Part shown: in pieces, positions 19,877 to 56,836 of the stretch
How the letters are laid out: each line of letters opens with the position of its first letter
Position numbering within the stretch: position 1 is the stretch's first letter
Origin: Clavulina sp. PMI_390
Lineage: Eukaryota > Basidiomycota > Agaricomycetes > Cantharellales > Hydnaceae
DNA: 59,273 nucleotides
Reading direction: 5' to 3'
NCBI GenBank assembly: GCA_015039315.1
Contig: WIDE01000080.1
Span: 93,843 to 153,115 of the forward strand
Program-made: the position numbers and the translations under genes
Notes under the pieces: generated by a model
What the model was told of the DNA's origin: nothing
Databases searched by the model: none
What the model saw: only the letters and a program-made list of their open reading frames with translations

Positions 19877-20820
19877 ACAGTGGGAGCATAGTGGAATAAT
19901 AACCCAAACAATTGTACGTATTACTTGGTATAGACAATAGCAAGATTGAGAAATATTGCGAAAGGGGTGTGTGGTGAGGTAGTGTTGTACATGTATCCTC
20001 AGTCGTAGGCTGACGCGATCCGAGCAAGCTGATCCCTGGAGGTTCTTTGGTGAGACCAAGCGGGCATGCAGTGCTCCGTTTCGTGTAGAGACCTTCGAGG
20101 CACATGGAGAATCGAGCACATGCACCATAACATGTGCAGATTGAGCGCTCGCCTCTCAGGACACAGCCATCCGGTAGCTCTCATCTCAGTGGTATCGGGC
20201 GCTTGGCCCCTTTATTATTGGACCATTCTGAAGCACAAGCAAGCCTTCAGGCGGTGCTATTATCGTTGATCCTTTTCATAGATACGGCTTGGGGGGCTGT
20301 TCCATTGACAGTAAAGTCACTTCCATCCATGCCACACATGAGATGGGCGGTTTTTGGTCTCGTGTTGTGATTGAAAGGCATCGCAAACGGGTGGATATAA
20401 GAGAAATCGTGGAATCGTTAATCTAAAGTAACGGGAAACTGAGCCAACACCATCGACATCGGGCCAGTCTCTTGGCTAAATGAATGGCACGAGTGGCCCT
20501 GCCTCTAAACAAAGCGAGTATGAAGAAGTATTTCACAATGCCTCCCGGACTTTTATATCTCCCCAATAGAACCGTGTCACAGAAGTCTGGCGCTGATGAA
20601 TGATGCACCAAAGGGAGATGGACGCAGGAACGGGGGGCAGTGGCCGTGAACATGTTCGTCCTTCCACATCCCCTCTCACTGACCATCCTACTGGAAACTG
20701 TACCGCCCGATGGGATGAGCATAAGGCCAGGGCAGCGCCTTTTAACTTCTATGGTCCTACAAATATGTGGCTAGATGAAGACCATCTCACCACTCTTCTC
20801 TGGATCTCATTGCTCAAGCA
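19877..20820. other. Intergenic, promoter side of TPR-A
   Basis: About 940 bp with no convincing gene. It contains the palindrome at 20648-20657 and presumably the SDR 3' end and the TPR-A promoter. Confidence 0.5.
20648..20657. promoter_or_regulatory. Palindrome GAACATGTTC upstream of TPR-A
   Basis: Perfect 10-bp palindrome, 163 bp before the TPR-A start codon. The same 10-mer precedes TPR-B, D, E, F and G at similar distances, so it is probably a transcription-factor site. Confidence 0.7.
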
Positions 20821-23800
20821 ATGCCAGCCAATTTGGACTCCAACGCAGGAGGACCTCATAAGACTGGGCTCTCATTGGGCTCCCTTCCTGTCGAGGATGG
20901 CCAGTCTTCCTCTACCCTAGTCGAAGATGTGGACACAGGACTAGATTCCTCGCCCTTCGAATCACTCGCGTCAGAGATGCTGCAGATGATTTCGGACCTT
21001 CAAGAAATTCTCCACGTCGAGGAGCAGAGGATGCTGACAGAACAAGCGCATGATATCGGCGCTGATAATGCTGCGCTCTCCTCTAAAGACCTACCAACCC
21101 CTCCATCTCCCCACTGGAAAGGGTTCTCGCTGTTCAAGGATTTCTTCTCCACCATAACCTCGACACCACCGTCAGCAACGGCTTCTGATTCCAGTCCTAC
21201 ATTTCCTGTCCAAGGGTGGAAATCACTTCTTGACAGCTGCGTGGATGGCGTCAATCGCGTCATAGCTGCCCAAGTGGTTATCGAGAAGGCAGAGAATGCT
21301 GATCGCGACAGACCACCTCTGTTCTGGCTCCTGTACTCTGGCCACCGGTACGCGACCCCACGCTTTGGTTTTTATATTATATTGCTCACCGGCTTTTTTT
21401 TTTTTTTTTTTTTTTTTAGGTGTCTTCAAGACCTTCTCAAAGTCGCTGCGGTCAGTGGAGCACCTACCCCATCGTTGGAGGGGTGGGACCCTCAGCCATT
21501 ACTCCGGTGGTCTGACGACGCCCAGGTGCGCGCCGTTTCCTTCAATTCGACGAATTTCGCATGCTCACATTAACTTCAGAAACTGTTCCGAAAGCATGGA
21601 CTTGCTGACGACCAACGGGCTTCGCCTACAGAGCTCAGCGAGATTCCAGATCAGTCGAGTTTGGTGTGTTGTTTTGTAGATCCAGCCTCCATAGTTATCG
21701 CTAATATCCCTCCTTACCTAGGAAACTCCACGCGGACTTCTCGAACTCGTACCACAAGGGATGGTGCAATTGAATAAGAACGGGCTGCCGTTTTGTATGA
21801 TGGGTGAATTCAACCTCTGGATCACCCACAATCGTCCCACCATCCATGATGAGTCATTCGGCCGTCTCCGTGAACTCTCCCTGTTCCGTGGGGCTAATGG
21901 TCCCTTCCGTCATGAGTTCCTCGTTGCCGGCTTTGGGGATGATGGACAGGATCCTTCCACTTGGCTTCGGCTGGAGCGTAGGGCGCAGCTACCAAACGGC
22001 AAAACCAGCTCTTTGGCTAAGGCAAATTCATCAACATCGCTTTTTGGTGGTGTCAAGTGCATTGAGACCATATCGTTCTCCACTACCAAGTCTTCACTAT
22101 GCGCTCACGCCAACGAACTCGCCAGAATTACTCTCGAAGATGCCGGCCCATCCCCCATCTTGATCTCGACCCTCTGCCTCCAAATGCAGTCAACGAGTAA
22201 CTCTAATCCAGAGTATCAGCTGTTCATAACGAATTGTCGATGGTTCTCCAGACGAGGGTTACTCAACGCCGTGCACTCCTGTGAGACTGCTCACATCCCA
22301 CTTTCTCTGACCTGGAAGGGTGCAGAGAGCTCTGTGGAAGTGTTACGAGCAAAACTCGAAAAACCGCCGCTCTGGCGATCTGAAATCCAAGACTTGCGGG
22401 ACAAAGGGGCTAGTCATCGGGCTCTTCTCGCATTTGCCCTCGATAAATCCACCCGAGAATCCACACCTCTTTCGAGAGCCGTACTCGATCCTTTCCTTGA
22501 TTCCCTCAAGAACGCAACGCTTGACCCTGACGAGCGAACGGTCTTGATCGCTGATCTCCTCACCAAGCGATCTCACGTCGTTGCACAAGACGACCTTCCC
22601 CAAGCTCTCGAGGACGCTGAGCGTGCAGTCAAGCTGATGCGCGATCTCCCGAAGGATGCCTTCCGCCGGAATGAACAACTTGTGTGGTCCCTGGGTGCAC
22701 TGGGGAGCGCACTGCGAATGGCGGGTCGCTTTGATGAAGCAATCTCTGCCTTGCGCGAGTGTTCAGAACTCGACACCGACAAGTCGCAGCCATTTGCTCT
22801 GCGGCTCGCCGAACTAGGAGTTGTGTACACAATGGCAGGGCAGCCTGCGGAGGCTGTCAAGGCATTCGAGAAGTCTGTCGATGTCCTCCGACGGATAGAT
22901 GGGGACCGACGCTGGGCAGATACACGCGGAGAACGAGCCAATATCCTCACTCTGCTGGCCAAAACACTCGACAGTCTCAATCGCCATGACGAGGCAATCA
23001 CGGTCCGCCAGGAGGTTGTCTCTATCTGTCGCGATCTCGGGGACCGAGGCCGTGATGGAGACCATCTCGTGACTGCACTTATCAACCTGGCCAACTGCGC
23101 ATACTCTGCCAAAAAATACGAGCTTTCGCAAGAAGCTTTGAAAGAGGCAAATCGCTTGTGCAGGTCCGATCCCAAGATTGAGACAATGCTACCCATGGTG
23201 TTGGCGCTTAGTGCTCGCACGTCTTACCGCCTCCGAGATCTGAAGTCTGCTCTGCGCTATGTTTCAGCGGCGATTGACCTAAAGTCTTCTGACGAAGACG
23301 GAGATCCCGTCAGTTTGCGTGGAGTGTGGCTGGTGTCACGCTCGATGTACTTCTTTGAGGCTGAAAACATGTTGCGTGGATTGGAGGATGTTGAAGCAGC
23401 GATACCCATATATAAATCCGCTCACGACCGGAACCCCCAGAACACTACTATTGTTGACCAGTTGTGGAACCTGCATTTCACACGCGCGAATGCCCTCAGA
23501 AAGCTGGGACGGGCAGAAGCAGCCCTAGTCGCGTTCCGCAATGCGGCTGCCGTTCAGCGCCCTGCAGTTGAGGCCGAATCGGAAGGCCCTGAGCAGCTCT
23601 TTTTGGAGCTAATATTTACGCTCGACGGATGCGTGATGGTGCTCAAAGAGCTTCGTCGTCCTGAAGAAGCGAGAGTATACGCGGAAGAATCCATCAATCT
23701 TCTCCGTCTCCGGCAAGAGTCCTCGGTATCATCTGTACGCATCAGCGAAACGCTCCATGCTGCACTGCTCCGCCACTCTCGGTTTTTGGCTGAAATTGGA

Positions 23801-24697
23801 GATGGAAGCGAGGCCTTGGCCCTTACCACTCAAGCAGCCAATATCAGCCAGCCATCTGGAGTCGATCAGTATCATGTTTCAGCGTTGCTGCGCAAGATGC
23901 TTCAAGAGATCGAGAAAGGTCGCCCCGGACAGGCTATCGCCACCGCACAGACTGCTCTCGAGCTATGCGAGATACGTTTGCCCGACAGACGAGATCTGCG
24001 TAGTCTCACTCTCAGCTCATATGCCCGTGCCCTCGATGAGGCTGGGAAACATGCGGAGGCCGCTGAGAAACAGCAACAGTCGCTTGCGATCTTCCGCGAG
24101 CTGGCGGACTTCACCACAACTGAGTCGAGGATTTCTCTTGCCCAACGTCTGGGCAAACTCTCGGAGTATTACCAAGATGGGGGACTCTTCGAGCAAGCGC
24201 TCGTTTCCATCGATGAGGCCGTGGAATGGTATCAAGCACTGTATGAAGATGGCGATGACGACGGCCAGGCATACTCCCAGATAGTCGCTCGCAGGGCCAG
24301 TATACTCTTCTCGCTGGACCTCCCCGAGGAAGCCAATGCTGCTCTCGAGGATGAGTTCAATATTCTCAAAACCGCCTTGAGGGACATGCCTCCGGACAAC
24401 ATGCTTGACCTCACTCAACGATGCCATCGCCACATGCTGAGCTGCACTCAGAACGGTAAGGTGGTGGATGCATTGGATGCCGCACGCCAGTATGTCGTCC
24501 TGATGCGCTTGGCATCGGCGTTGGACTCTGAAGTTGATGGCTCGCTTGACGGCGAGAATGGGCCTCGACTGAAAGGATCGCTTGAGGATGTGCTCATTAC
24601 GGGCCTTCTGCCGGTTACTTCTGTGAATGTCCAGGCGGTTGATGGTCTCACGGCCACGCTGGAGAGTTTGAAGCTGTCTCCAGACTTCGTGGGTTGA
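20821..24697 (+). CDS. TPR-A: large TPR protein with His/Cys (putative permuted papain-like) domain
   Basis: Four exons: 20821-21347, 21420-21525, 21580-21663 and 21722-24697. Phases fit throughout and give 1230 residues. Residues 1-239 form a helical module ending in PPLFWLLYSGHR at the first intron, then a Trp-rich segment (GWDPQPLLRW) and a KHGLADDQ stretch. Residues ~250-430 carry FRHEFLVAGFG (His303) and YQLFITNCRWFSRR (Cys411); His before Cys in this spacing recalls circularly permuted papain folds such as LRAT and PPPDE proteins. Residues ~440-1200 are TPR repeats, e.g. AGRFDEAISALRE and AGQPAEAVKAFEKS. Intron 1 has a 24-T pyrimidine tract. It is the only family member on the plus strand. 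It ends 228 bp before the SH3 gene. The enzyme role is inference; a TPR scaffold is well supported. Confidence 0.88.
21394..21417 (+). repeat. Poly(T) tract forming the 3' splice-site pyrimidine run
   Basis: 24 consecutive T directly before the AG of TPR-A intron 1. It is unusually long for a fungal intron of about 72 nt, and absent from the other six copies of this intron. Confidence 0.8.
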
Positions 24698-27443: not shown

Positions 27444-30400
27444 CTAACATGTACAACATGCCGCTATAATCACAGTTATGTTCGTGATCCATAGTAGAGC
27501 CATGGTCATGATTGTTTTCCATCGTTGATGGTACCCTCCGTGTTTTAACTCGCTTCGCATTCTGATAAAGGCAGAATGGGAGTCTCCTCGTATTGACCCT
27601 TGCTCTCGTGTAGTTTCGAGCGCCTTACGCTTGACTGTTTTGTTGATCTCTAGATCAATGGTATGAAAGAGACCAGATGCTTCAAACATAGCAGCTGTGG
27701 CGTCAGTGTTCGATTTATTCATGGTAGCAATTATTGCCAGCCACACAAGGGCTTGCTTGAGTGCACTGTTGGCCTTAGCCTCCCCTGCACCTTTGCTGTC
27801 CTTGAGGGCCATTTCAGATCTTGCCTTAATCAAGGAGGCTAAACGAGTAAATATGACATACTCCCGCGCAGAGTCAAGGGCATTTGACGAGTCGCCTTTT
27901 CCCGTGAAAATCAACGCTGTGTAGAAGTGCAAGTTAGCATGCGTGTAACTGTCGTCCACAGACATGTCCTTCAAAACAGCACTCTTCACTAGTTCAAAAT
28001 AATCATCCTGGATTATCCGGTGCTTTTTTTGTTCTTCGAGGGCAAAAAGCACGCCCGACGGAGAAGAGAACGGATCAAACGATGGCCAGTCACCATAATC
28101 ACCTTCCTCATAAAGAGCTTGAAAGTCTCCCAAGGCGGAATAGACAGAAACATCAGCCTTCTGAACGAGCTTTACATCCTTGTAGTATTGTGAGACCTCG
28201 AGTGCTCGCTGCGAAAGAGCGATTTCAGCGACAAGCATGCCGACGTCAGCCAAATTACGGAGGATTGTAAGGTACTCGTCTCGCTTAGTGTCACTTATAG
28301 GTCTCCCTAGCGCATCGAGAGCTTTGATTTGTATCAGAAGGATAGTAGATCGCACCTCGGGCCTATTGGGGAGCCCAGTGTCGAACAATTCTTCTGCTGT
28401 GCCTATAACCTGCTCGAAAGCTTCGCTAGCAGACTCTGCATGCAATCGAAGGAGGAGTGCTTCCGTTAAGTTTTCAGTGTCTCCAAGCTGACGAGAGATC
28501 GTGGCCACTTCAGTTGCCAGAGAAATTGACTTTGTCAAGTCCCCTAAGCGGAACATAAGCTCGCTATGGTGCTGTAGAGCGGATCGGAGGTTTTCAATGA
28601 TGAGGGCGGATGAGAGTGGGGAGTCGCGCCGGAGGCGGAGGCGATTGATGTATTCTTCAGCCCATAGTTTTGCTTCTTCGAGGCGATCGATTCTTGTCAA
28701 TATCGCTACGCGTGCGTCGATAATATTGATGAGCTCTAAAAAGCGCTCTTCAAGGACATCTGTCTCGGCGTCTACCACCGGGCGCAAGATCTCAGCTGCT
28801 CGACAAAGCCCATCCAACGCTTCATTGGGGCGCTCCAGGTCGTCGAGTAGGCCTGCACGATTTGAATGAGCTCTCCACAGCTTCGTTGAGATATCCTGAT
28901 TTTCAGGCATCAAAATATGAGCAGATTCAAGAAGAGGGATTGCTCCTTCAATGTCTTCCAATCCATGCTGCACATCGCCGGACTCCAGGAGGTACATTGA
29001 GCGATATAGCAGCCACATACCGTATATAGCACTGGAATAGACCTCATTAGCCGCGGGGGTTTGCAGTTCGATTGCTGCCGTGATATCCTGGATGGCAGAA
29101 TTCACATCACCAAGGCGATACAGCGTCCCGGAATGGACTGACAATGATATTGCCAGCAGAGGCATATTTTTGGGATCGGCTTTACACAATTGGACTGCTT
29201 CTTTTGAAGCCTTGACTGAAGTTGCATGCTCTTTGGCAGACGCTGCGCACGTGGCTAGTTCGATGAGGGCCTGAGCCAAGAGGTTGTCACCGTCCTCACC
29301 TCGCGCCGAAATGTCGCGATAAAGAGACACGATTTCCTCACGAACAGAGGTTGCTTCTTTGTGACGACCAAGAGAAATTAGTGTTGTGGCCAACATATGA
29401 AGCGATTCAGTTTGCCTCTGGAGCCGTGAAGAGAAGCTTTCAAAACGACAATACAGGGGGTGAACCTGGAAGTCTGCATTTCCCCTGAATATTAGGATCG
29501 CGTCTCCAAGCCGCCCCACTTGTTGGTAACACAAGCCCAAAAGATGAAGGCGGCCAGTCGGATACGGGAGTTCATAGGTATCCAAGGATTCTTCCAGCAC
29601 GAGAGTTGCCTCTTCAAAACGACCAGCCATGTGGAGAGCCTCCCCCAAGTAAAGGAGGGCCGTGGCGAGCTCAATTTTTCGAAGGTCGGTGTTCATGCGG
29701 ACGCTTCGAAACAGCTTCACGGCATGTTGAGCGCTCTCAAGAGCTTCAGGGATGTCCTTCTGCGTCTGTGAAAGAACATGTGATCTTTTTGCAATCATAC
29801 CCGCCATGAGCACTGTGCGCTCCTCAGGATCGATTGCCATCATCATAAGCGATTCTTGCAAGGGGTCAAACACTGTGGCGGATTCTGGAAGAGAATGGTC
29901 CCGCTCTATCATCAGGGCAAGAAGATTACGATGGTCAAGACTTGATGCTTTCATGTCTGCCAACTCTGATCCTCCAAAATGCTCCTTCTTGAGGCTCCGC
30001 TGAATGTCCTCAAGAGAGACTTCAGTGCCTTTCCACATGCCAGCAGCCGGAATTTTAGCGGCATGGCACCATTGAAGGATATTGAAAAGGCATCTGCGGG
30101 CATACCAGCGACAGTTAGTGGTGAATAGCTGGTATTGTTCACGAGCGCCATGCGTCATCTGGAATCCATTGAGCGCGAGCGTGAAAAATATGGGGACTGT
30201 AGTTGGAGCAACAAGGATGACTTTAGCCAACTCATCAGCATTGGCCGAGAGCAAGTCTTTTGAGGCGGAGAATGAGATCGTGTCTAAGGCACCGGTGCCA
30301 CCGAGTACAGGTCCGAAAGATTGTAATCCGGTGATTGGTCCAGAGCTCCCATTTAGATTTTCAGCCCGGCGCTCTACCCTTAACCAGCTTGTTATCTGAT

Positions 30401-31466
30401 TGCCATCTTCGCCGAACCCAACGACAACAAATTCGTGGTAGAAAGGGGCCTTTTTGTTGCGGAAGAGGTAGATTTCTTGTATACGGCCAGCAGAGCTTTC
30501 GTTCGTGATAGCTTGAGTACGATACAGTACTAGGAGCTCAAGCACATCGCAGAATGGCGCCCCATGTATTGGTTGATGTATCAATTGGGCAGGCACTAGC
30601 CGTAGAATCTTATTCGTTTTCTGCAGCTGAATAATGGTCAATATAGGATTATGGAGTCAGTTTCCAACGGTACATACATCGATTGACGCGCAAGAATGAT
30701 CACTCTGCTCGCTTCCCAGCATCTGCTGAAAATCCTGATGCCAATCGTGCAAGAGCTAGAGCGGGGGTTGGCGCCAAGATGATTTGAAAGTAGAAATAGC
30801 AGCGTACCTCGGCATAAGAGCTCCATTGATAGAGTGGCTCAACGTCCCACTTTCCCAAAGTAACGGATTTCTGCAGCGTTTGAAGAATTCTATTTAAAAG
30901 CAACAGTGTGCATTCAATGTCACCCAACCGAGGTATATACAGGCTCACCTACGACATGAGAAGAGCACCCAAAATAGAGGAGGTCTCTGGTGCTTCACTT
31001 TGGTGTTCTCTCCAATCGTTTTATGAGCGTAGACGACTGAACTAACGACGGACAAACACGTACACATAGCGGCTGCCGAGTGTACAACAGAACGCTTAGC
31101 TTCAGCGGCGGGCAATAGATCTGTGGATTTCACGGCGGGAATTGAGATTTTGGATGGCCAGAACTGGGGTACCCTACTCGTTGGTCCTGGCGTAGGTTCC
31201 TGAGGAGAGCTAGAATCTTTGGAAGCGCTTTCTCCCTCGGTATTGGTCTGGAACAATGCAGGCTCAATGAAAGATAACGCTTCCAGAAGACATAGAATGA
31301 TCTCCACAATGTTGACCGCAATCGTCTCTAAGGGGTCAGGCTCGACCTCGCCTTCGGTATCTCTGGCTAAGATAGCCAAGAGGGGTTCAAGATAAAATGA
31401 GCGACACAACTCGGAAAGCTCAGCCGTGAGTTCCAGATGGACATCTCTCAGCTTTGAGGTGAACAT
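27444..31466 (-). CDS. TPR-B: family member with divergent N-terminus and hydrophobic C-terminus
   Basis: Exons read as 31466-30949, 30889-30808, 30725-30678 (least certain) and 30626-27444. Phases fit and give about 1276 residues. The N-terminal module ends PPLFWVLFSCRR (SGHR in the others) at the same phase-2 intron. Exon 3 is short and lacks the KHGL-DDQ segment. FYHEFVVVGFG and YQLFTTNCRWYARR keep the His and Cys. The TPR region is intact (AGRFEEATLVLEES, LGRHKEATSVREE). The C-terminus differs from the family: after VKRKALE it runs into a Lys/Arg-containing tail and ends in a hydrophobic stretch, ALLWITNITVIIAACCTC, which could be a tail anchor or read-through into former non-coding DNA. 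It is one of the most diverged copies, with F. Confidence 0.82.
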
Positions 31467-31559: not shown

Positions 31560-31569
31560 GAACATGTTC
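31560..31569. promoter_or_regulatory. Palindrome GAACATGTTC upstream of TPR-B
   Basis: Exact copy of the family palindrome, 93 bp before the TPR-B start (minus strand). It is the closest of the six to its start codon. Confidence 0.7.
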
Positions 31570-41371: not shown

Positions 41372-42081
41372 GTTAGGCAGCAGGGCGATGACGAACACAG
41401 CTCAGATCAGACCACGTGGAAGAATGGATTCCTTCAAGTGCATTATTCATGAGATGGCGCCGGATGGTATGGTGACTCTGGTAAGATGCACTGCTCCAAC
41501 TGAAGGATTTTGCACGGCAGATGAACATGTTCGACTCCTCTATGCTGGGTAAATGTCCGTGATTGCCGAATGTGAAGGATTGGGACTTTGCAGACGGGGT
41601 GCTCGGTATAGATGGCTGGGTTTGGCGTTTTTCATCCACGAATTCCTTGCATATTTATTCTGTGTGTCGTCCACTTCGCTTCCCTCTTCTTGGGCTCCCT
41701 GCTTGCGGATCTTATGGCTGAAGTGTGTTTTGCTTTTTGCTACTACCGCGTTATGCAATACAGTCAACATTACAATTCATGAATGACAGTATCAGGCTTG
41801 TCAAGATTAAGTAAGTGGTATTATCAAGGGCTCTGGATGGGAGGCTCGCAGGCGGTGGAACGTTTCTTGCATATAATCAATGCATTTGAGACAACAATTG
41901 ATGCGATATTGTGGTTGAGGATGATATAGACGTTATCGTTTGGGTATAATGGGTAAAGTGGAGCATACTGCCATGAATTCCGATTCCTGCTAGTCAAAGT
42001 GAACTACCATAGAGAGAGGGAGAGCTTCCGGTAAGATTCCTGTGGAAGACGTTCAGAAAATGACTAGACGTACGAGTTTTA
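41372..42081. other. Intergenic TPR-E / TPR-D
   Basis: 710 bp holding the TPR-D promoter palindrome. No gene was recognised. Confidence 0.5.
41523..41532. promoter_or_regulatory. Palindrome GAACATGTTC upstream of TPR-D
   Basis: Exact family palindrome, 151 bp before the TPR-D start (minus strand). Confidence 0.7.
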
Positions 42082-45000
42082 TCAATTCGAGTCCTCCTCC
42101 GCCATATCTTCAAGCGCTTTCTGCATCACCACTTCATCGATATCCAAGTCCACATCATGGGAGAGCTTGAACGCTTCTAACATAGCGGCCATGGCGTCGA
42201 TGCGCGAGTTGTTCATTGTCGCAATCATTCCGAGGCCTATGAGAGCTTGCTCGAGCACGCTTTTGGGTTGGGCTTCACCGTCGCCGTCAGCATCACCTTC
42301 GCTCTCTTTATCCGCCATGGTGTATCGAGGTTCGATTGACCATGCTAGACGAGTGAGAACAACGTGTTGCCGCGCAGAGTCTAGGGCATCTGCTGATTTT
42401 CCCTTTACAGTGAGCATCAGAGCTTCGTGATGGCGTTGATCGGCTTGTGCAAGAATATCATCGACAGACATTCCGTCCAAGACGATCTTGAGTAGTTCAA
42501 GCTCTTCATCCAGGATGTATCGAGCCTGTTTGCGCTCATTGAGGGAGAAGAGAATACTCGCTTTGCGAGCGAGAGTCTGACAATACGTCATACCATCATT
42601 ATCCCCTTCTTCATATAGGGTTCGATGGTGTTCCACCGCCTCATTGACAGAGACAAGCGCTTGCTCGAAAAGCCCTGCGTCTTGATAGTATTCCGAAAGC
42701 TTGGCGAGTCGCTGGGCAAGAGAGATTCTCGCATCAAGCGACGTGAAGTCAGCCACCTCACGGAAGAGCGCAAGGGACCCCTCTTGCTTCTCGGCAGCAT
42801 CCGCATATCTTTCAGCATCGTTGAGAGCGCGAGCATAGGAGGTGAGAGCGGTGCTGCGCAGATCGAGCCTATCGGAGAGCCGCGTCTCGCATAGTTCGAG
42901 GGACTCCTCTGCGGTGGCTATCGCACGTTCAAAATAACCATTTGCAACCTCCTGAAGCAACCTATGAAGGAGCGCCCCGATATGGTGCTCGGGATCTCCG
43001 AGGAGCTCACAAATCTCGACTGATTCGTTTGCGAGGGATAAAGCTTCCTGCTCGTCCCCTAATCTGGCCATGAGCTCGCTATGTCGCAGCAGCGCCGACC
43101 GGAGGGTCTCGCTAACGAGAGTAGAGCAATCCGTGGACTGTCGTCGCAGGCGTAGGCGAGTGATAGATTCATCTGCGCACTCCCTCACTTCTTCCGGGCG
43201 ATCGAGCTCTCTCAGCGCCATGGCACATGCTTCAAGGGTGAAAATAAGCTCCATGAAACGCTCTTCAGAGATATCGGGATCGGCCTCCACTGCAGGGCGC
43301 CGTATGTCAGCCGCCTTGCGGAACGCATCCGCCGCGTCCTCCACGCGCTCCAGGTCTTTGAGCAAACTTGCACGAGTAAAATGCACGGTCCACAGCTTGT
43401 TCTCTAAACCCGGGTCCCCGTCGCTTAGAGCGCAGGCAGACTCATAAAAAGGAATTGCTGCTTCGAGATCCTCCAACCCTTGCAGGACATCGCCAGTCTC
43501 AAGGAGGTATGTGGAGCGCATCTTGAACCATGCGCCCCGTGTAATGATGGAACAGCTATCATCAAGAGTAGTCGATTGTTCGTCAATCGCTGCCGTGATA
43601 TCTCGGAGAGCAGACTTCACATCGCCGAGGCCGTATGACGCTTGAGCACTTAGTGCCATAGCCATGGGAAGCAAATTTGCATTGCTAGCGTCGGATTTGC
43701 ACAGACGGATCGCTTCTTTTGAAGCTTGTAGAGAGGTCGCATACTCCCCTGCTGATGTTGCGCAGGTGGCCAAGTTGATGAGAGCGAGGATCAAGAGGTC
43801 GTCGCCATCCTCATCTTTTGCTGGGAAATCCCGACGGATAGACACGATTTCCTGGCGGACAGAAACCGCTTCTGCATCGCGATCGACTGATTCCAGCATT
43901 TTGGCCAACATGACCAGGACGTTGACTTGATTCCTGCGACTATACGACCAGCTTTGGCCCTGGTCGATACGAGCCAAGACGTTAGCGGAATCTCTGAACG
44001 CCTCGATTGCCTCATCTATTTGCCCTGATCGCTGGTAATTTAGGCCAAGCTCGCATAGACGAATCGCGAACGGCAGAGATGGGTGATCGAGCTCTAAGCA
44101 TTCGCGAAGCACTGGGATCGCTTCCTCGAAACGTCCACCCGTCCGCAGAGCGGTAGCTAATGCTCCGAGGGACCATACCAGCTGTTCTTCTCGACGAAAG
44201 GCCGTCTCAGGGAGATCCCGCATGAGCTGAACAGCGCGCTCGGCGTCCTCGAGCGCCTGGGGGAGGTCCTCGTTGACAATAACATGTGATCGCTTTGTGA
44301 GGAGATCAGCGATGAGAACAGCACGCTCATCATCATCAGGATCGAGTCTTTCTCCCTTTCTTCTCGACGAAAGGCCGTCTCAGGGAGATCCCGCATGAGC
44401 TGAACAGCGCGCTCGGCGTCCTCGAGCGCCTGGGGGAGGTCCTCGTTGACAATAACATGTGATCGCTTTGTGAGGAGATCAGCGATGAGAACAGCACGCT
44501 CATCAGGATCGAGTCTTGTAGTCATAAGGGACTCGAGAAGGGGGTCGAGCACAGCTCGTGAAAGTGGAATAGATTCTTGTCTCGCTGTCGCCAAAGCGAG
44601 CAGATTGCGATGGTCGAGGCCTTTAGCGCGCAGGTCCACCAACTTTGATCCCCCAAAACGTTCCTTCTCGAGTTTCTTCTGAATGAACTCAAGTGTGGTT
44701 TCTGTGCCTTTCCACGTGGGGAGAGCCGGTATGTGGGCAACATCGCACCACTGTAAGATATTGAGAAAAGTTCTCCGGGAGTACCAGCGACAATTAGTTG
44801 TGAACAGCTGGTACTTTCCGTTCGAGTTGCTTGTCGATTGGGCTTGATGAGTCATTGCCACGATGAAGATAGGGAATGTCGCCGGCGCGGCGAGCACAAT
44901 TTTGGCAAGCTCGTTGGCATTATCGCAAAGTGCGGCCTTGGATTCCGAGAATGAGATGGTCTCTCGAGCACCGACGCCACCAAGTAACGGTCCAGAGGAT

Positions 45001-46190
45001 TGCATTCCAGTCATAGGTCCAGAGCTCCCGCCTCGCATCCGAGCACCACGCTCCATCCGTATCCAACTTGTCATCTCCTGGGCTTCGTCGCCAAACCCAG
45101 CAACAAGAAATTCGTGATGGAAAGGGGCTTTTTTACTGCGGAAGAGGTAGAGTTCTTGGAGGCGTCCTACATGTTTTTCATCGCCAGCAGGTATGTTGCT
45201 CATTGACCAGATTGCGAAGTCGCCCGAATCGCAGAACGGTGCTCCGTGCTTTGGACGGTGGATAAGTGAAGGAGGAAGCAAATGAAGGAGTTTATTGGTT
45301 TTCTGGGACTGAGGAACAGTGAGCTATGACTCTGGGGTCGAGGTCAGAATGGGAACGCACTGAGGTTGACGCATTGCAATATTCGCTGAGATCTCTTGGC
45401 AACGACTCCTGGTCATCTGCAAGTCCGTGCTTCTCGAACAGCCTCTACAGCTCAGGTGAGAACCGGATCGTTATGATATAGTGGAAAAGAGGCTTACTTT
45501 GGCGTCAGAGCACCATTGAAGGAGTGGAGGAGGGTTCCACTTGTCCAATGGAGACGGTGTTCCATCGTTTTGCACGGAGTCCCGCAACGTTTGAAGGGCT
45601 CTATATGAGTATGGTACCATCAATACTGCCCAAGAGAAGTCTAAAGATATATGGGCTTACCTGTGGCCTGAAAACAGTAGCCAGAACAGAGGAGGTCTGT
45701 GGTGGTTCACCTCGGCAGCAGTCTCGAGGACGACATGAGCGGCAACGGCGCGGTTGATGCTATCAAGACTGGCATCCAGAAGCCATCGCCACGCCTCGGC
45801 AAGGTGTTCGGTTTCAGGGTCGGAATTGGGAGGTGCAGATGTCGACTTCACCAGCGGCAAAGATCCTTTGAATGGCCAGAATCGCCTCACGCCACTGGAT
45901 TCACCTGATATTGAGTTTGGCGAGGGCGAGACCGAATCGTCGGCGGATTTGTTCTTCTCGGCATCGCTGATAGAGGGTCCCCGTTCAATGGTGGACAACG
46001 CCTCCTGCAGATCCGAAACAATGGCGAGCATATCGGAGGCAATCGACTCGAAAGGATTTGGCTCTAGATCTTCTTCTGGCTCTCCAACCAGGGTAGGGGA
46101 CGGAGAGTCGAGAGAGAAAGAGCGCATTGGGTCCAAGATCTCTGAGGTGCCTTCCAGCTGTCCATCGTATGCCAACGTGGAGCCAGACAT
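42082..46190 (-). pseudogene. TPR-E: family member broken by a 173-bp tandem duplication
   Basis: Start at 46190 (MSGSTLAYDGQL). Exon 1 is 46190-45661, in phase 2 after LFWLLFSGHR; later exons follow the family plan. The last exon is open from about 45300 down to the first TPR (EDLPQALEDAERAVQLM), with FHHEFLVAGFG and YQLFTTNCRWYSRR intact. A direct repeat (44185-44350 and 44358-44517) then inserts 173 nt, not a multiple of three, and the frame ends at 44157. The remaining TPRs and the normal acidic C-terminus (DLDIDEVVMQKALED) continue open in another frame to 42082. No AG/GT pair in the unit would let splicing remove exactly one copy. Without the repeat this would be a full-length family protein. 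A truncated product with the His/Cys domain but almost no TPRs is conceivable. Confidence 0.8.
44185..44517. repeat. Tandem duplication inside TPR-E
   Basis: Two copies, 44185-44350 (166 nt) and 44358-44517 (160 nt), separated by 7 nt. They look identical except for two extra ATC units in the first. The unit covers codons of the first TPR helix pair. The offset of 173 nt shifts the reading frame. The near-identity implies a very recent event or an assembly artefact. Confidence 0.9.
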
Positions 46191-46918
46191 GGCGTTTGAC
46201 GGTGGCAATGGGAAGAAGGCAGAGCGCGAGATTGATCACATCATGAGGAGGAAGCGTCGTTCTTTATGTATTTCTGACGAAAAGGAAATCATATGGCGCT
46301 GCTGATGCGTGTATGCCTCGGTCTCGTAACGTGCGGCGAGACGCACTGCTTACAAGGAGGCAGTTGTCTGACTCGAGGACGAACATGTTCAAGCCTCGAA
46401 ACGATTCCATCCCGCCTTGACCTAGTGGTGTTTGATCCCTTGGCATTCCGTCTGATTATCAAGAACTGTCCTCACCCGAAGGTGTTCGAGGTCATAATGC
46501 ATGTCCTAGGGTGATTCAAACACTCCAACGATCGAGCACAGCCCCGTAGTGTCGTAATCCTCTACAACGCCTGCATCGCTTCGTTCGTTGCCATCTTGGA
46601 GGCGCTTCCTTGTATTATTCTCGTTGTTAATATGTGTCATCTGCGATCACTTACACTAGTCGTGTACATTTTCCATTAGTCCAGAGTAGGGGTCAATCAA
46701 TAACATCTAACGTGAACAGCTTGGGCATGACTCAAGTGATCAGGTGGTGGTGATATAATACCTAGACTTATCCCGATATTTCAGTATGGGACAGTCGGTA
46801 AGTCAATATATATAAGATGAGCATAATATCGTAAAGATATGACTCACACTGAGATAACCTCCATTAGTGATTCCTCCCATTATCGAACTGCTCGATAATA
46901 TACTAGCATCGGATGATA
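46191..46918. other. Intergenic TPR-F / TPR-E
   Basis: About 730 bp with the TPR-E promoter palindrome. A short minus frame at 46803-47021 overlaps the end of TPR-F in another phase and contains DSDID, reminiscent of the lost family C-terminus. Confidence 0.45.
46381..46390. promoter_or_regulatory. Palindrome GAACATGTTC upstream of TPR-E
   Basis: Exact family palindrome, 190 bp before the TPR-E start (minus strand). Confidence 0.7.
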
Positions 46919-49900
46919 TTAGCGAGAAGAAGGTAAACCAATTGAGCTCCAGGTTGCACACCACAGGAGCGGAGCGAAAGTCAGGACCGAGATCAATATC
47001 AGAATCGATGCACTGCCGCAAGACTGTCCTGGCTTAAACACGCTCTTGAGGTTAGCTTCGCCTTTGCCAATGTCCGTGCTAGTTATTGCTTGTCTCGGTT
47101 TGAATGAAGAGGCCAAGTGATCAGCCACGAGGTGCTGCCACGCAGACTCAAGAGCATCTATCCGTTTTACTGCCGTGAACATGAGCGCTTTATAGAAGTG
47201 CAGACCAGAAAACTCTAGAATATCACCCATGGCGGTGTCCTCTAGAACTGTTCGAAGCACTCTGAGCTCTTCATCTAGAATCCGTCGAGATTCTTTGTGC
47301 TCATTGAGAGAGCAGAGTATTCTTGCCTTTAGGACCATTGTCTCACAATACGCTATGCCGCAAATAACCCCTTCCTCATACAAGGTCCAGTTGTGTTCCG
47401 CGGCGTCATTAGCAGCGACAAGCGCTTGCTCAAAGAGTCCCGCATCCAGGTAGTATTCTGAAAGGAGGTCCAATAGATGGGCAAGAGAGACTCTTGGAAT
47501 AAGCGAGGTGAAGTCTTCCTGTCCTCGGAAAAGCGCAAGGGATTCCTCCATCTTCTCAGCAGCGTCTGCATGTCTCCCAAGCCCTCTGAGAGCATAGGCA
47601 TATATCAAAAGAATCTCGCTGCGGTGAGCAAGCCTATCGGGGTGTCCAGATTCTTGCCACTCGAGGCAATGCTTCGCGGTGACTATAACGCGCCTTGGAT
47701 TAGCATTTGCGGCTTCCACCTCCAACCTGAGGAAAAGCGCGGCCTGGTATTCCGCATCTCCAAGCTGGCGACAAATTTCGGCCGCTTCATTCGCAAGAGA
47801 TAGCGCTTCATCAATGGCTCCCAACCCGACTATAAGTTTGCTTTGCAAGATTAGAGCGGAACCGAGGTCCTCGCTGATGAGCCTTGACGAGACCGAGGAG
47901 TTTCGCCGGAGGCGGAGGCGATCAATATATTCTTGTGCACAGACTCGGGCCTCTTCAGGGCGGTTAATCTCTACGAGCACCACTCTACGTGCTTCAAGAA
48001 AAGAGATAAGCTCCGCAAAGGAATTCCAGGGGACATCTGCCTCCGCATCCACTCCTGGTCGCGCAATGTCTGCTGCTTGGCGAAACGCATCCGCCGCATC
48101 CTCTAGGTCCTTGTGCACGCTTGCACGAGTTGAATACATTTTCTCCAACCGTGATGCGATATGCGGATCCTCAGGGGCTAGGTCATGGGCAGACTCAAAG
48201 ATAGGGATCAATGCTTCAATGTTGTCAACTCCATCCAGCACTTTGCTGGATTCGAGGACGTATGTTGAGCGCGTCTTGAGCCACTGACCACGCTCAAAAG
48301 CGTAGGCGGCATCATTCACGGCAGAGGGTTCCATTTCGATTGCGGCCGAGAGTACTTGTATGGCGGACGTTACATCGTCGAGGCCGTACAGCGCACGGGC
48401 ATTGAGAGTCAACGATTTCGACAGCAGGCGGACATCAACGGGATCGGCTCCGCAAATTTGAACTGCTTCTATTGAAGCCTTTAATGAGACCGTGTATTCC
48501 TCAGCCGAAATCGCGCATGTGGCCAGGTCAATGAGAGCGAGAACCAAGAGTTTATCACCATTCTCATCCTTCACGGTGAGGTCACGACGAATAGACACTA
48601 TTTCCTCATGAACAGAGATCACTTGTTTGCCGCGACCAAGAGATTCCAGTGTTTTGGCCAACATGACAAGTGACTCGATTTGCTTGTTGCGCCTGAAAGA
48701 CCAGCTCTCACCCCTATCGCCACGACCCAGGGTATCGGCAGATTCCCTGAATGCTGTAACTGCCTCTTCTAATTGGCCCAGCCCCTGGTAGTTTAGACCC
48801 AACTGATAAAGGCGATTGTCATGAGAGCCAAATGGTTCTTGGAGCCCTAAGGACTCTTGGAGCACAGGAATTGCCTCTGCAAAACGACCATCGAGGTGCA
48901 GAGCATTTGCAAATGCATTGAGGGCCCAGAGCAGATAATCATCTCGAGTGTGGGTTTCTTTGGGTAGAGCCCGCAGTAGGTTGACGGCACGCTCAGCATC
49001 ATTGAGAGCCTGAGGAAGATCCTTGCCGGCGATGAGGTAAGATCGTTTTGCAAGTAGATCAGCGGTGAGGATCGTACGCTCATCAGGATCAAGTGTCATC
49101 GTAGGAAGTGACTCTAGGAAAGGATCAAGCACAGCTCGGGAGAGCGGGGTAGAATTCTGTTCCGACATTGCTATAGCAAGGAGAATACGGTGATCAAGAC
49201 CCTTCGCCCGCAGGTCGTCCAGTTTTGACCCCCCGAAACGCTCTGCTTTCAATTTACCATGAAGAGCCTCAAGAGAGGTCACCGTGCCTTTCCACATGGC
49301 GATAGCCGGGATGTGGCCAACGTAGCACCATTGTAGGATGTTAATAAAGCTTCTCCGGGCATACCAGCGACAGTTCGTCGTGAACAGCTGGTACTTCAAG
49401 TTGGACCAGCCTGTTGTCTGCACTTGATGGAGCCAATTTCGAAAGAATATAGGAAGTGTGGTGGGTGCTGGGAAGGCAACTTTTGCCAGCTCTTTAGCCG
49501 TAATGGATAGGTCAGCCTTGGATGTCGAGAACGAGATAGTCTCTCGAGCTTCGACACCACTCAGCAAAGGTCCAGACAACTGAAACCCACTCATGGAACC
49601 AGAGATGCCATCTTGCAACTGAGCACCGCGCTCCACTCGTATCCAATTAGTAACCTCCTGACCGTCGTGTCCAAATCCGGCAATGATAAATTCATGATGA
49701 AAGGGTGCCTTTTCACCACGGAAGAGATAAAGTTCTTGCAGGCGCCCTATAGCGTTTTCTTGAACAGAAGGAAAGCCGTAATTATGCCATAATGAAAACT
49801 GGGTCAGATCACAAAATGGAGCTCCGTGCTTTGAACGATGGATCATCCCAGGGGGCAGTAGCTGAAGGAGCGTGTTTATTTTCTGCGACTGAGGAAGAGT

Positions 49901-50777
49901 AAGGGCTTTGTCTCCAGGCTCGAGTCTATAATAGGCACGCACATTCATCGATGGATTGGGGTGTTCAGGTTCCTTTGGTAGTCCTTGTTCATCGTCCATT
50001 AGTCCATGCCGCTTGAATAATCCCTATAGTGGGGTCAGGGTTAGTGGCAAATCGATCTGACCACAGAGATAGCAGCGGCACCAGGGTGTCAGCGACCCAT
50101 TGACTGAGTGGTTCAGTATTCCACTTTTCCAACGGAGAAGGTCTTCCATCGTCTTCAATAGATTCCTGCAGCGTTTGAAGAACCCTATAGGATCGAGCCG
50201 CCATTAGTGATGCTCGCGATGGTTAAACAATGGTATAGATCCACCTATGACCTGAGAAAAGCAGCCAGAAAAGAGGGGGTCGCTGGTGATCTGCTTTGGC
50301 AGTATCTTCGGAGAGGGTATGGGCAGCAACAGTGTCATTGACGATGCGCAAACAAGCAAGCAGAAGCCACGACCATGTTCTGACAAGATCTTCGGCTTCA
50401 GGATCCAAAACAGGCGATAGAGTGGTGGACTGTAGGAAGGTTTGGGATTGTTTAAATGGCCAGAATCGTTTTCCACTGTTAGGCGAGTCTGATGTTGGGA
50501 TTGGAGAGGAGCTCGAATGTTCATGTTGACTCTCCTTGTAGGCTTCAGCGTTGAAGAATCCAGGCTCGGTTCGGTATAGCATACCCATGAGACCTAGAAT
50601 GATGCCCACTATGTTAGACGCAACCAACTCGAAAGGGTCGAGCTCGACGTCCTCTTGGATCTCTTTAGCCATTATATCCAATAGGGGCTCAAGGGAAAGC
50701 GAGCGGAACAGCTCAAAAACTTCGGATATGCCTTCTAAATCGAGTTGGGCATCGTCTGCCGACTCCGAGTCAGACAT
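46919..50777 (-). CDS. TPR-F: TPR protein with His/Cys domain and altered C-terminus
   Basis: Exon 1 is 50777-50245 (MSDSESADDAQL), phase 2 at SGHR. Exon 2 lies near 50185-50085 (LQTLQESIEDDGRPSPLEKW). Exon 3 carries FKRHGLMDDEQGLPKE. A 54-nt in-frame intron is likely before SQKINTLLQ, as in the other copies. FHHEFIIAGFG and YQLFTTNCRWYARR keep the His-Cys pair. TPR units such as DGRFAEAIPVLQESLGL and LGQLEEAVTAFRESA are intact. The end differs from C, D, E and G: after KSVFKPGQ the usual last ~50 residues (IATMNNSR ... DIDEVVMQ) are missing and a Ser/Ile/Leu-rich hydrophobic tail follows. With TPR-B it forms the more divergent subgroup of N-termini (SFYLEPLL / SLSLEPLL). Confidence 0.83.
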
Positions 50778-50936
50778 GTTTGGTGGTATGGAAGGCAGGA
50801 CCAGACGCAGGGTAGATCGCGTTGTGCAGAGGAAGAGTTGTGTTTACATATACACCTGAGGCCGCGAACAACATCGCACCAAGTCAGGGACCCGACTTTG
50901 ACAGGATGCACCGCCCCCCGTGCACATTCAGCAGCC

Positions 50937-50946
50937 GAACATGTTC
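50937..50946. promoter_or_regulatory. Palindrome GAACATGTTC upstream of TPR-F
   Basis: Exact family palindrome, 159 bp before the TPR-F start (minus strand). Here it overlaps a second inverted element, GTTCGAAC. Confidence 0.7.
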
Positions 50947-51619: not shown

Positions 51620-51620
<1 letters not shown>

Positions 51621-51653: not shown

Positions 51654-52156
51654 CATCTTCATGCAAGTCTTGAGGTCGCTCTACGAGAATTCAGATACCA
51701 CATCAGGCAATGCGGCAGCTAATTTCCCTCGGGCTCGGAAATGCACCGCTTCTTCATACCTAGTGGGGGGTGTTTATTATTGCGGACGTCTGAATGATCT
51801 AGCCGCCAACACATATGGCAGTCCATTCGTGGTTTTGCACCTTTCATAACGGCCTTAATGGACGACAATCTTACTTGTGGGAGAAAAATTTAGGGTATAG
51901 TATTGACAACTCTCAGCATGGTGAGGCATCACAGCAGATGTGCGAGGTGAAATATATCAATTTGATTCCAGTCTGGGCCGGAAGCTTGGGTGGGGATTGT
52001 GATCTAATAGGGAATTATTGGTCGGGTTTGATGAAAAATGAATAAATGGAAGTGCTGTCCGGAATGCCACTTTACATTCATTCCAGAGAACCAAGGTAGC
52101 GATTCATCAAGATTAGGAGGATGTAAGAGGTAAGATCTTTGAATGGATATACCACA

Positions 52157-55100
52157 TCAAGTTGAACCTTCCTCCTTCGCGTTTTCGAGCGCCTTCTTCA
52201 TCAACAGCTCGTCAATATCAAGTTTTACATCATGCGATAGCTTGTATGCTTCAATCATAGCAGCCATAGCGTCCAACTCCAAGCCGTTCATGGTAGCAAC
52301 CAAGCCAAGCCGCATCAGAGCCAACTCGAGTATACTCTTGGGCTCCACCGCGCCATCCTCATCCTCGTCGCCCTCATCGGAATATCTTGGTTCGATAGAC
52401 CAGGCTAAACGAGTAAGTACCACGTGCTGCCTCGCGCAGTCAAGTGCATCAGCTGATTTGCCCTTGGCAGAATGCATGAGCGCATCATGGTGGCGCTGAC
52501 CAGCGAGCTCTAGTATATCATCCACCGAGATATCGTTCAGGACAGTTTTGAGTATCGCAAGCTGGTGATCCAGAGCAGATTGTGCTTCTTTGCGCTGGTT
52601 AAGCGAGAACAAGATACTTGCTTTGCGAGCAAGGGTTTGAGCATACATCATCCCATCTTCTTCGCCATCCTCATAAATCATCCGGCGTCGTTCTGTAGAC
52701 TCATTAATTGTGACAAGCGCCTTCTCGAAAAGCCTTGCGTCTTGGTAATATTCAGCCAGTTTTCCCAAGCGCTGAGAAAGCTCGTTCTTATTATCAAGTG
52801 TCGTGAAGTCGGCCAGCTGACGGAAGATTGCGAGGGATTCTTCCTGCCTCTCAGCAGCTTCCGCGTGTCTCCCTGCCTCATCGAGGGCACGGGCATACGA
52901 AGTGAGTGCGAGGTGACGTAAATCTCGCCTATCGGAGAGACGTGTTTCGCATAGTTCGAGACAAGCCTCCGCAGTGACTATAGCGCGTTCGGGATAGCCG
53001 CTCCCGATCTCCTGCATCATCTTATGCATGAGTGCCGATACTTGATGCTGATCAGCCTCAAGTTGGTCGCTGATCGAGGCTGCCTCACTTGCGAGAGCTA
53101 GAGCCCCGACCTGATCTCCTAAGTCGGCGATTAACTCAACATAGCGCACGAGAGTCCTGCGAAGAGTTTCACTGATCTTAGTCGAGGATGATGAGGACCG
53201 ATGCCTGCGTCGTAGATGGCCAATAGTTTCCTTCGCGTAATCTTTTACCTCTTCAAGGCGATTGAGTTCCATTAGCACTGCAGCACAGCCGTTCAGAGAA
53301 GACATCAGCTCCAAAAATTGCTCTTCAGAACCGTCTCTTTCGGCTTCCACTACGGGTTGCCGAATTTTGACTGCCATCTGATATGCGCCCAACGCTCCAC
53401 TGAAGCGCTTGAGTTCCTTGAGCAGACTTGCTTGGGAGAAGTACGCCTCCCACAGCGAGGTCGGGACAGTGGAATCATCAGCGCTCTGGCGATGAGCAGC
53501 CTCGTATAGAGAGATAGCCGCATCAACATCCTGCAATCCCTGCAATGCATCACCAGCCTTCACGAGATATTTTGACCTCATCATCAGCCAATCAGCTCGT
53601 TTTTCGGCGGCGTCAAGACCTTCCACGTCAGATTGTAGATTGATAGCCGCCGTGATATCTTGGATTGCGGAACGCACATCTTCATAAGCATATGAAGCAC
53701 GAGAACTGAGCACCAGCGACATGGGTAGCATATCACCATTCTCTGGATCGGACTTGCACAGGAAGATAGCTTCTTTTGAGGCTAGTTGAGAGACTAGATA
53801 TTCTTTGGCAGGGATAGCACATGCTGCCAGGTTAATAAGAGCGAGAATGAGGAGATCGTGGCCATCATCATCCATTCTTGGGAGATCGCGGTACATCGAC
53901 ACGACTTCTTGCCGAATGGGAACTGCCTCTTTCTCACGATCAAGAGACTCCAGAGTCCTGGCGAGTATAATCAGCACATGGGCTCGTTGCTGGCGCGTAT
54001 ACGTCCAGTCTTGACCATCATTGGTTCGAGATAGGATATTGGCGGACCGCTTGAGCGACTTGATGGCTTCATCTGGTTGCCCAGCTAGTCGGTAGTTTAC
54101 ACCAAGCTCGCAGAGGCGGATGGCAAAGGATATAGAGGGCGAGTCAAGTTTCAAGGATTCCCGGAGTGCCGGGATCGCTTCTTCAAATCGACCGGCTAGC
54201 CTTAAGGCACTTGCCAAGGCACCGAGGGACCAAACCAATTGCTCATCTCGACGAAACGCATTTTCGGGAAGATCTCGCATAAGTTTCACAGAACGCTCGG
54301 CGTCTTCGAGGGCTTGAGGGAGGTCCTCGTCAGCAATGACTTGTGATCGCTTTGCAAGGAGATCTGCAATGAGTACGGCGCGCTCGTTAGGATCAAGCGT
54401 TGTGGTCATGAGCGATTCGAGGAGAGGATCGAGCGCGGCTCGCGAAAGAGGTGTCCTATCACGTCGTGAGGTCGCCAAATTGAGAAGATTCCGATGATCA
54501 AGACCTTTGGCCCGTAGATCTACGAGCTTTGAACCTCCGAAACGTTCCTTCTCAAGCTTTCCGCGAATATTCTCGAAAGAGGCCGCTGATTCTTTCCAAA
54601 ATGTGGTGGAAGGGATCTGTCCCACATCACACCACTGCATGATATTGAGGAAGTTCCTTCTCGAATACCAACGGCAATTTGTTGTAAATAGCTGGTATTG
54701 CCCCGTTTGAGTTGCTGGTGGACTGAATCTGATGGCCCATCCCAACAATAAAGATTGGGAGGGTGGTGGGGGCTGTCAAGATGATTTTGGCGAGCTCATT
54801 TGCATTGCTGGACAATGGAGACTTTGACGCCGAGAATGAAATCGTTTCTCGAGCTCCAACACCACCCAACAGGGGTCCAGACGAGTGCATTCCAGTGATC
54901 GGACCAGAGCTGCCCCCTCGCATCCGAGCACCCCGCTCTACCCGAATCCAGCTTGTAGTTTCCTCGCCATCTTCGCCAAACCCACAAACAATAAATTCGT
55001 GATGGAAGGGGGCTTTTTTACTCCGAAACAGGGAGAGTTCTTGGAGGCGTCCCACGGATTTTTCATCCAGGGCGGAAACATTTCGGACGGCCCATGACAC

Positions 55101-56066
55101 GAACTCACTCGCATCGCAGAATGGTGCTCCTTGCTTCGGGTGATGTATTAGTCCTGGAGGCATCAGCCGAAGAATTCGGTTTCTCCCCAGAGACTACATA
55201 ATAGTGAGAACAAGATCGGATGTCTTCTGCTGAAGCGGCTGAAGAAGGCTTACGTCAATCGTCCCATCAGGATGTTCACTAAGCTCCTTAGCTGAAAGCT
55301 GTTGGTCGTCCGCAAGCCCATGTTTTTCAAGTAATTTCTACAGCTGAAGTTGGCGCCAAATCATTCAGCAGGAGAAAGTTACTTACTTTGGCGTTAGAAC
55401 ACCATCGAAGGAGTGGTTGAGGATTCCACTCGTTCACTGGAGGCAGCGTTCCATCACTTGTGACAAGATCGCGCAGTGTTTGAAACGCTCTATATGAGCC
55501 TGTCACTAACCGCATGCAGTAACGAGTTTATTTATGCTGGCTTACCTGTGACCCGAAAACAATAACCAGAACAAAGGAGGCCTGTAGTGATTCGCCTCGG
55601 ATTCGAGGAGCACATAAGCGGCAACAGCGCGACCGACACTGTCAGTACATGCGTCCAGAAGCCATGCCCATGCTTCGATGAGGTGCTCAGCCCCAGGGCC
55701 AGAAGTAGGTGATACGGCTGTGGGCCGCACAAAAGGGAGAGGTCCCTTGAACGGCCAAAATCGCTGTACACCACCGGATGGACCAGATATTTGGTTTCCA
55801 AAATATTTATCGCAATCTGAGCCACCTATGATGCTACTATTGGTGGTATCTAATTCGCACTTTACCGAGGGTAAAGCGTCACGAAGGTCAGAGATGATAG
55901 TCAACATATCCGATGCGACCGACTCGAGAGGGTTAGGCACAATATTTTCGCCCAAGCCCCTGAGCAACGTGGAGTCTTGAGATCCCAGAGATAATGAACG
56001 CAGCGAGCTCATAATATCTGATACCCCTTCTATCTCAGCATCCTTTGCCAGTGTGGTTTTTGACAT
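52157..56066 (-). CDS. TPR-G: family member with a one-base frameshift just before the NCRW motif
   Basis: Exon 1 is 56066-55546 (MSKTTLAKDAEI), phase 2 at LFWLLFSGHR. Exon 2 lies near 55490-55385 (FQTLRDLVTSDGTLPPVNEW); exon 3 carries LLEKHGLADDQQLS. The last exon starts near 55190 and keeps FHHEFIVCGFG. At 54701-54704 a run of four C (G on the coding strand), against three expected, shifts the frame after TSNSNG. One base fewer restores NGQYQLFTTNCRWYSRR, and the frame is then open to 52157 through the whole TPR array (AGRFEEAIPALRESLKLD, AGQPDEAIKSLKRSA) and the acidic tail. The Cys codon is 54674-54676. It is either a recent pseudogene or a homopolymer error; the rest of the gene shows no decay. 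Confidence 0.8.
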
Positions 56067-56836
56067 GGCGTGAACAGAATGGAGTATGCTTGGCAAGATG
56101 ACACTTTATGCAAGTATGTGTGTTTGTGTACCCTTTGGTGAGATGATTCAGCACTGCTTGTCGATGCCTGTTGGCCCATCATGCACTGCTTCAACATAGC
56201 GAAGGGCGGAGTGCTAGTTGCCGGGCGGTCGAACATGTTCGAGGACCCATTTCAACGATTCTCAACAAGAGTGAGCTCTTCGTAATCTGAATAATGTCCT
56301 CGGATACTCTCCACTTTGTGAAGAAGCTTCCTTTATGACTAAGGTATATACTACTCATATTGTATATGTATCTGTGAAGAGAAAGCTACGCAGTTTGGGG
56401 CATTGTTCTTTTTCGCCAAATGAGAGCAATTGCCTGACCAAGATCTGACTGCTGCTAGACATCTTAGAAAATATTAGAGTATTCGTAGCAGTGCTTAGAC
56501 TCTTCCTAGAGCGCCAAAGACCAGAGCGCTGCTACGCGCCTTGAGGATGAGGTACAATTAAGATTATTAGGTTCATAAGGCCGCTAATGATGCTAAAATC
56601 GTTTGCGTAAAATCCGCTCTGGATGGGGGTAGGAAGCTGAGCTTTGTCTATTATCAGAGAAGCGTCACATAGGAAGGTATATTTGATGAGATTAGATTGC
56701 CCTCCTCTGCATTGGCTCCATCACACATCGCGAGCATAGCCTCACAACATCCGAGAAAACCGAGAGATCGACACCCCTGATTGGAGTCATCACGTTATTC
56801 AATATATTGGAAAAATCAAAAATGGCCTTACATATA
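56067..56836. other. Intergenic, promoter side of TPR-G
   Basis: 770 bp with the TPR-G palindrome and the 3' flank of the first small secreted peptide. No other gene was recognised. Confidence 0.5.
56231..56240. promoter_or_regulatory. Palindrome GAACATGTTC upstream of TPR-G
   Basis: Exact family palindrome, 164 bp before the TPR-G start (minus strand), nearly the same distance as in A (163) and F (159). Confidence 0.7.

Follow-up and report, generated by a model that had tools for sequence, protein, structure and literature searches.

A palindromic promoter word, probably a regulatory site, upstream of tandem TPR genes in Clavulina sp. PMI_390

Clavulina is a basidiomycete genus of the Cantharellales. 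The window analysed here is a stretch of 59,273 nucleotides from contig C281 of Clavulina sp. PMI_390, which is 153,115 bases long; the window runs from base 93843 to base 153115. The genome used for comparison is that of the same isolate (39.4 Mb, 301 contigs), and all comparisons are within this one fungus. Seven TPR genes lie in the window:

20821..24697, plus strand, TPR-A, box 1 upstream
27444..31466, minus strand, TPR-B, box 1 upstream
32429..36358, minus strand, TPR-C, without box 1
37357..41371, minus strand, TPR-D, box 1 upstream
42082..46190, minus strand, TPR-E, box 1 upstream
46919..50777, minus strand, TPR-F, deposited as DL93DRAFT_2158790
52157..56066, minus strand, TPR-G, box 1 upstream

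Of the first eight window ORFs to be scanned, seven contain TPR repeats and the remaining one represents a first exon. The N-terminal domain of these proteins is marked by two motifs, H62-E63-F64 and N169-C170-R171-W172, which are invariant among six aligned TPR sequences. With TPR-F as the query, 20 matched stretches were found in the genome. We took the family as 12 genes, namely TPR-A to TPR-G in the window and five members on other contigs (C50, C28, C77, C164 and C283, named here after their contigs); C50 and C283 are each the sole family match on their own contig. Six weaker matches (C144, C198 twice, C183, C182 and C267) are partial, each covering some part of the query between residues 36 and 386. 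Within 3.5-4 kb of sequence at each of these six loci (L019-L024), no box 1 with up to one mismatch was found.

The window also holds genes of other types. A DNMT1-type cytosine methyltransferase gene at 6143-9723 (minus strand) is indicated by a replication-foci domain match (30.6 bits) and by a PPCQGYSSLNR catalytic motif recognized by eye. Helicase-like gene fragments occupy 13753-16678 (minus strand), with a Helicase_C match just below the cut-off in 13753-14217 and the remainder assigned by eye. Three F-box-like genes, one of them just below the Pfam cut-off, lie at 9-3027 and 11769-13448, and none has a box 1. Homologue searches returned five and seven proteins, and all named ones belong to Clavulina sp. 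PMI_390; the sensitivity of these searches is restricted to sequences with shared words, and one of them scored the best 7999 candidates. A literature search on Clavulina combined with tetratricopeptide or F-box genes and genome found nothing.

The feature that connects most of these TPR genes is the palindrome GAACATGTTC, which we refer to as box 1. The window contains seven copies, compared to 0.09 expected from 100 dinucleotide shuffles, none of which reached more than one copy. The six positions given in the preliminary description are all exact, as is the seventh copy. No strand is assigned to the palindrome:

20648..20657, box 1, 163 bp upstream of TPR-A
31560..31569, box 1, 93 bp upstream of TPR-B
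41523..41532, box 1, 151 bp upstream of TPR-D
46381..46390, box 1, 190 bp upstream of TPR-E
50937..50946, box 1, 159 bp upstream of TPR-F
56231..56240, box 1, 164 bp upstream of TPR-G
58915..58924, box 1, seventh exact copy, adjoining no TPR gene

The six distances, also taken from that description, hold for the start codons used here. For TPR-F (P0001) and TPR-E (P0002) these are the ATGs at which the deposited models begin. The deposited or predicted models of TPR-D (P0004) and TPR-C (P0003) start further downstream, and we used a paralogue-like upstream exon instead. Allowing one mismatch adds a single site in the window, GACCATGTTC at 50371. At the genome-wide rate, 0.05 copies would be expected between 20.6 and 56.2 kb, and the probability of at least six is about 3e-11 if sites are taken as independent. 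The contig ends 349 bp beyond the seventh copy. On the other side of this copy lie two short minus-strand ORFs (57984-58388 and 56916-57146) with signal-peptide-like starts, as judged by eye, and an ECDCPDGT motif in both; they are perhaps small secreted cysteine-rich proteins.

Across the family, seven of the 12 promoters have an exact box 1 (A, B, D, E, F, G and C50). The C50 gene is an eighth paralogue, situated on another contig, with the palindrome 162 bp upstream. The exact copies start between -200 and -161, with the exception of the TPR-B copy at -103. The check on promoters of further family members had a mixed outcome: the box is exact at C50 and degenerate at C283 (CAACATGTTC, one mismatch, at -183) and C77 (AAACATATTC, two mismatches, at -185), and absent from the promoters of TPR-C, C28 and C164. 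In an unsupervised count of promoter words, box 1 is the top 10-mer with seven exact promoters out of 12, and 20 shuffled sets reach two. The base before box 1 is a pyrimidine and the base after it a purine in 7 of 7 cases, which extends the symmetry by one base, so that in TPR promoters box 1 lies within YGAACATGTTCR.

Since the TPR genes are tandem paralogues, a box that is merely left over from recent tandem duplication or gene conversion has to be considered. The coding sequences, however, have diverged far. The seven exact-box genes encode proteins with 38-64% identity, and their fourfold-degenerate sites are 32-51% identical (mean 41), where random fourfold identity is approximately 27%, a figure that includes C28 codons read in the wrong strand. 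The ungapped flanks of box 1 share 25-30% identity. When these seven genes are compared, all 10 columns of the box are invariant, whereas this holds for 2 of 59 fourfold columns and for 1 of 120 columns in the flanks, and recent copying offers no explanation for this difference. Furthermore, one exact box is found on another contig (C50), and conversion tracts of exactly 10 bp appear implausible. We consider this explanation very unlikely. The preliminary description had favoured selection on a short site over recent duplication, and the divergence of flanks and fourfold sites bears this out. Box 1 stays unchanged within non-coding DNA upstream of these genes, at a level of conservation above that of the neutral yardsticks, and the comparison of these sequences gives good support to the view that it is a promoter word under selection.

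How box 1 was distributed over the family can be approached from the gene tree. TPR-C belongs to a well-supported group with TPR-D, TPR-F and TPR-B, a position that fits a loss of box 1 in TPR-C. Exact boxes occur on several branches; as a label on the tree, box 1 requires four changes and is not more clustered than chance would give (345 of 500 shuffles are as low). A single old origin followed by later losses is plausible. Box 1 would then have been present before the family expanded and would have been retained by selection as the array grew, while decaying in some members (missing in TPR-C, degenerate in C77 and C283).

Every copy of box 1 contains an ATG. It could therefore be argued that this ATG starts a conserved upstream ORF and that the palindrome is its start context. 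However, the frames that follow MF range from 4 to over 50 codons and share no common peptide by eye, no fixed frame connects the box ATG to the main ATG, and the four bases before the box ATG are as invariant as those after it. In addition, three promoters have a TATA-like word on the gene side of the box (at -78 in E, -64 in C50 and -44 in G), which indicates that the box is probably not transcribed in them. No TATA-like word was found in the promoters of TPR-A, TPR-B and TPR-D, and in TPR-F the only such word is further from the gene than the box. We rejected a conserved upstream ORF on the ground that, by eye, the peptides have nothing in common beyond MF, and we regard the start-context reading as improbable.

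Box 1 is accompanied by a second promoter word in the TPR family, RGCRGTGC (box 2), which is new. This word was first spotted by eye and was defined on the very promoters in which it was then tested; with this definition, seven of the 12 promoters contain it, in each case between -160 and -117, an interval in which 2000 shuffles gave 0.04 promoters on average and two at most. The seven are the window promoters of TPR-C, D, E, F and G, together with C50 and C164 (loci L025 and L015). The copies in the window are:

36481..36488, minus strand, box 2 AGCGGTGC, at -130 of TPR-C, without box 1
41488..41495, minus strand, box 2 AGCAGTGC, at -124 of TPR-D
46343..46350, minus strand, box 2 AGCAGTGC, at -160 of TPR-E
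50908..50915, minus strand, box 2 GGCGGTGC, at -138 of TPR-F
56183..56190, minus strand, box 2 AGCAGTGC, at -124 of TPR-G, with a further copy at -92

A blind word count recovered the exact 8-mer AGCAGTGC in five promoters, against a shuffle maximum of three. With one mismatch allowed, the box 2 8-mers reached nine promoters and the best shuffled word also nine. Where both boxes are present, their starts are 31-52 bp apart, with box 2 nearer the gene; two of the seven box 2 promoters (TPR-C and C164) are without box 1. The combination of box 1, a spacer of 25-55 bases and GCRGTGC occurs four times in 39.4 Mb, all in the TPR family, compared to one occurrence for the reversed control. For AAGCRGTGCRTC, the genome-wide count is 30 against six for a reversed control; as this control is richer in CpG, we attach no weight to the difference.

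The preliminary description had proposed a genome-wide count as a check that GAACATGTTC is not a common dispersed repeat. The 39.4 Mb contain 57 copies, compared to 49 for the reversed palindrome CTTGTACAAG, and the word passes this check. With a genome total so near the control, the excess of box 1 is local. A dispersed repeat or transposon end was discarded on the same count, along with the unrelated flanks of the seven TPR copies. The weak over-representation also implies that many of the other copies may be there by chance. We inspected 30 of the 57 sites, namely the seven in the window, C50 and 22 of the 49 others, picked partly for clustering and not at random. Among these 22 non-TPR sites, nine lie by F-box-like ORFs and 13 are without an assigned target.

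Two gene groups unrelated to the TPR family stand out, with box 1 before three of three members in each. On contig C231, each of three F-box-like paralogues is preceded by the box, at distances of 170, 140 and 185 bp. Of 18 matches, these three alone are full-length members, and their identities to the query are 56% and 46%. Pfam scans of two of the three gave one F-box-like match above the cut-off (25.1 bits) and one below it (14.2 bits). The first C231 box is, in addition, roughly 130 bp away from where a divergent ORF ends, and this ORF has an F-box match below threshold (21.5 bits). On contig C79, box 1 precedes the three closest paralogues, whose identities to the query are 67% and 56%. 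The distances are 56, 56 and 60 bp, counted to a conserved first exon that ends at a splice-like GT. The C79 proteins look F-box-like by eye; a Pfam scan of the three, two of them in part, gave no match. Among more distant C79 relatives (the rest of 66 matches obtained from 76 of 117 candidates, 20-40% identity), no exact box 1 lies within 15 kb as judged by coordinates. The distance from box to ATG thus varies by family, from 56-60 bp in C79 to 93-190 bp elsewhere.

The reading that box 1 descends with recent copies fares differently among these sites. The ungapped box flanks in C231 are 24-34% identical, which contradicts recent duplication there as flank and fourfold divergence does for the TPR genes. 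C79a and C79c share 68% fourfold identity, which makes C79 weaker evidence than C231. Recent duplication does hold for the two boxes on contig C28 (L026 and L027, at C28:69522 and C28:78065), which lie inside an alignable duplication with blocks of 73-88% identity. Paired Zn2Cys6 transcription factor ORFs, one of them confirmed by Pfam, are located about 2.2 kb from these boxes, and the same contig holds a TPR family member. A second pair (L047 and L048, at C288:85071 and C288:92423, 7 kb apart) sits in a partly alignable stretch, where the DNA has diverged except for a 52-bp patch with 81% identity that surrounds the boxes.

Box 1 could also be a promoter element of the TPR genes only, in which case C231, C79 and the remaining sites would be coincidences spread by small tandem duplications. 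The near-control genome count is consistent with this idea, as is the fact that the control palindrome also forms four pairs within 15 kb. Box 1, however, makes nine pairs within 15 kb outside the window (one of which, on C28, is a plain duplication) and two triplets, compared to no triplet for the control. A triplet arose in 0.8% of simulations with 50 randomly placed sites, in which tandem duplication was not modelled. Each triplet corresponds to a small group of paralogues, and all members that were found have the box upstream. We therefore give the TPR-only explanation roughly one chance in a few, enough to keep it in mind. Single boxes next to F-box genes weigh little in this matter, because the genome abounds in F-box-like genes: of 878 first-look candidates, 150 were scored, and all 150 matched. 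Boxes at C251:221389, C8:89721 and C297:60977 adjoin ORFs whose F-box matches stay below threshold (19.5, 12.4 and 13.3 bits), and since the reading frame is open through the first two of these, the box may be coding there.

Given that box 1 marks three arrays, it might serve a DNA or chromatin role tied to tandem arrays, such as an insulator or a replication or recombination signal, and not transcription. This seems improbable too, because box 1 lies upstream of starts, including those of C50 and (with one mismatch) C283, which are single matches on their contigs, and because it occurs together with box 2 within a limited range of spacings.

Box 1 resembles several known sites. The consensus half-site of the p53 family is RRRCWWGYYY. 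The 10-mer GAACATGTTC fits this consensus and, judged by its letters, is a known metazoan pattern. Complete p53 response elements consist of two half-sites 0-13 bp apart. Box 1, in contrast, is single: no exact pair is closer than about 2.1 kb, no second exact half-site occurs at 20-50 bp spacing, and coordinates exclude shorter exact spacings. To our knowledge, fungi have no p53. One published study used cGAACATGTTCg itself as a weak p73 half-site (PMC3794606). We rejected a two-half-site element, since the best neighbour within 13 bp has two to three mismatches in all seven exact-box promoters.

Heat-shock elements are arrays of nGAAn and nTTCn units. Box 1 contains the GAA and TTC words in inverted order, but they are separated by the four bases CATG instead of two, and no third unit is present. 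The earlier view that box 1 is not a heat-shock element, which would have a two-base spacing and at least three units, is correct. The LexA/Cheo box of Gram-positive bacteria, CGAACN4GTTCG, has the same GAAC and GTTC half-sites; it differs in having four central bases where box 1 has two, and its regulator is bacterial. The fungal Grainyhead/CP2 site, AACCGGTT, is likewise a short palindrome read by a dimer, but box 1 has different core letters. A search of the genome for a CP2 domain found no match, and control genomes gave no match either. Our literature searches, judged by title, turned up no named fungal site with this sequence, in keeping with the preliminary description, which recognised none.

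Taken as a whole, these observations are best explained if box 1 is a cis-regulatory site, and we think it likely that it is one, most probably bound by a dimer, acting with box 2 and placing several arrays under one regulator. On this explanation, GAACATGTTC would be an upstream site, with a sequence-specific factor as its most likely binding partner. A perfect palindrome with five-base halves, present once per promoter, matches the need of a symmetric dimeric activator or repressor. We infer from this symmetry that the regulator may be dimeric, docking with one subunit on each GAACA half. Among the TPR genes, box 1 would act together with box 2, a directional element nearer the gene. Besides box 2, the occurrence of box 1 before the C231 and C79 families is new, and the same palindrome before two unrelated tandem families suggests one regulator for several lineage-specific arrays. 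A more specific proposal is that GAACATGTTC defines a dedicated regulon, in which unrelated lineage-specific tandem arrays (TPR genes with the H...NC domain and F-box-like genes) are driven together by a putative fungal factor with a p53-half-site-like preference. This proposal is tentative, and we would sooner doubt it than rely on it.

The genome is rich in tandem TPR and F-box-like arrays. A short palindrome that has outlasted its randomised surroundings points to a probable shared regulator. A promoter word with strong evidence of selection, together with a possible regulon that spans several families, may be regarded as a solid finding of a familiar kind. Box 1 would predict which genes switch on together, and it could be used as bait for the factor. 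If the regulon exists, it would represent coordinated control of fast-evolving arrays, as expected of a recognition or developmental programme.
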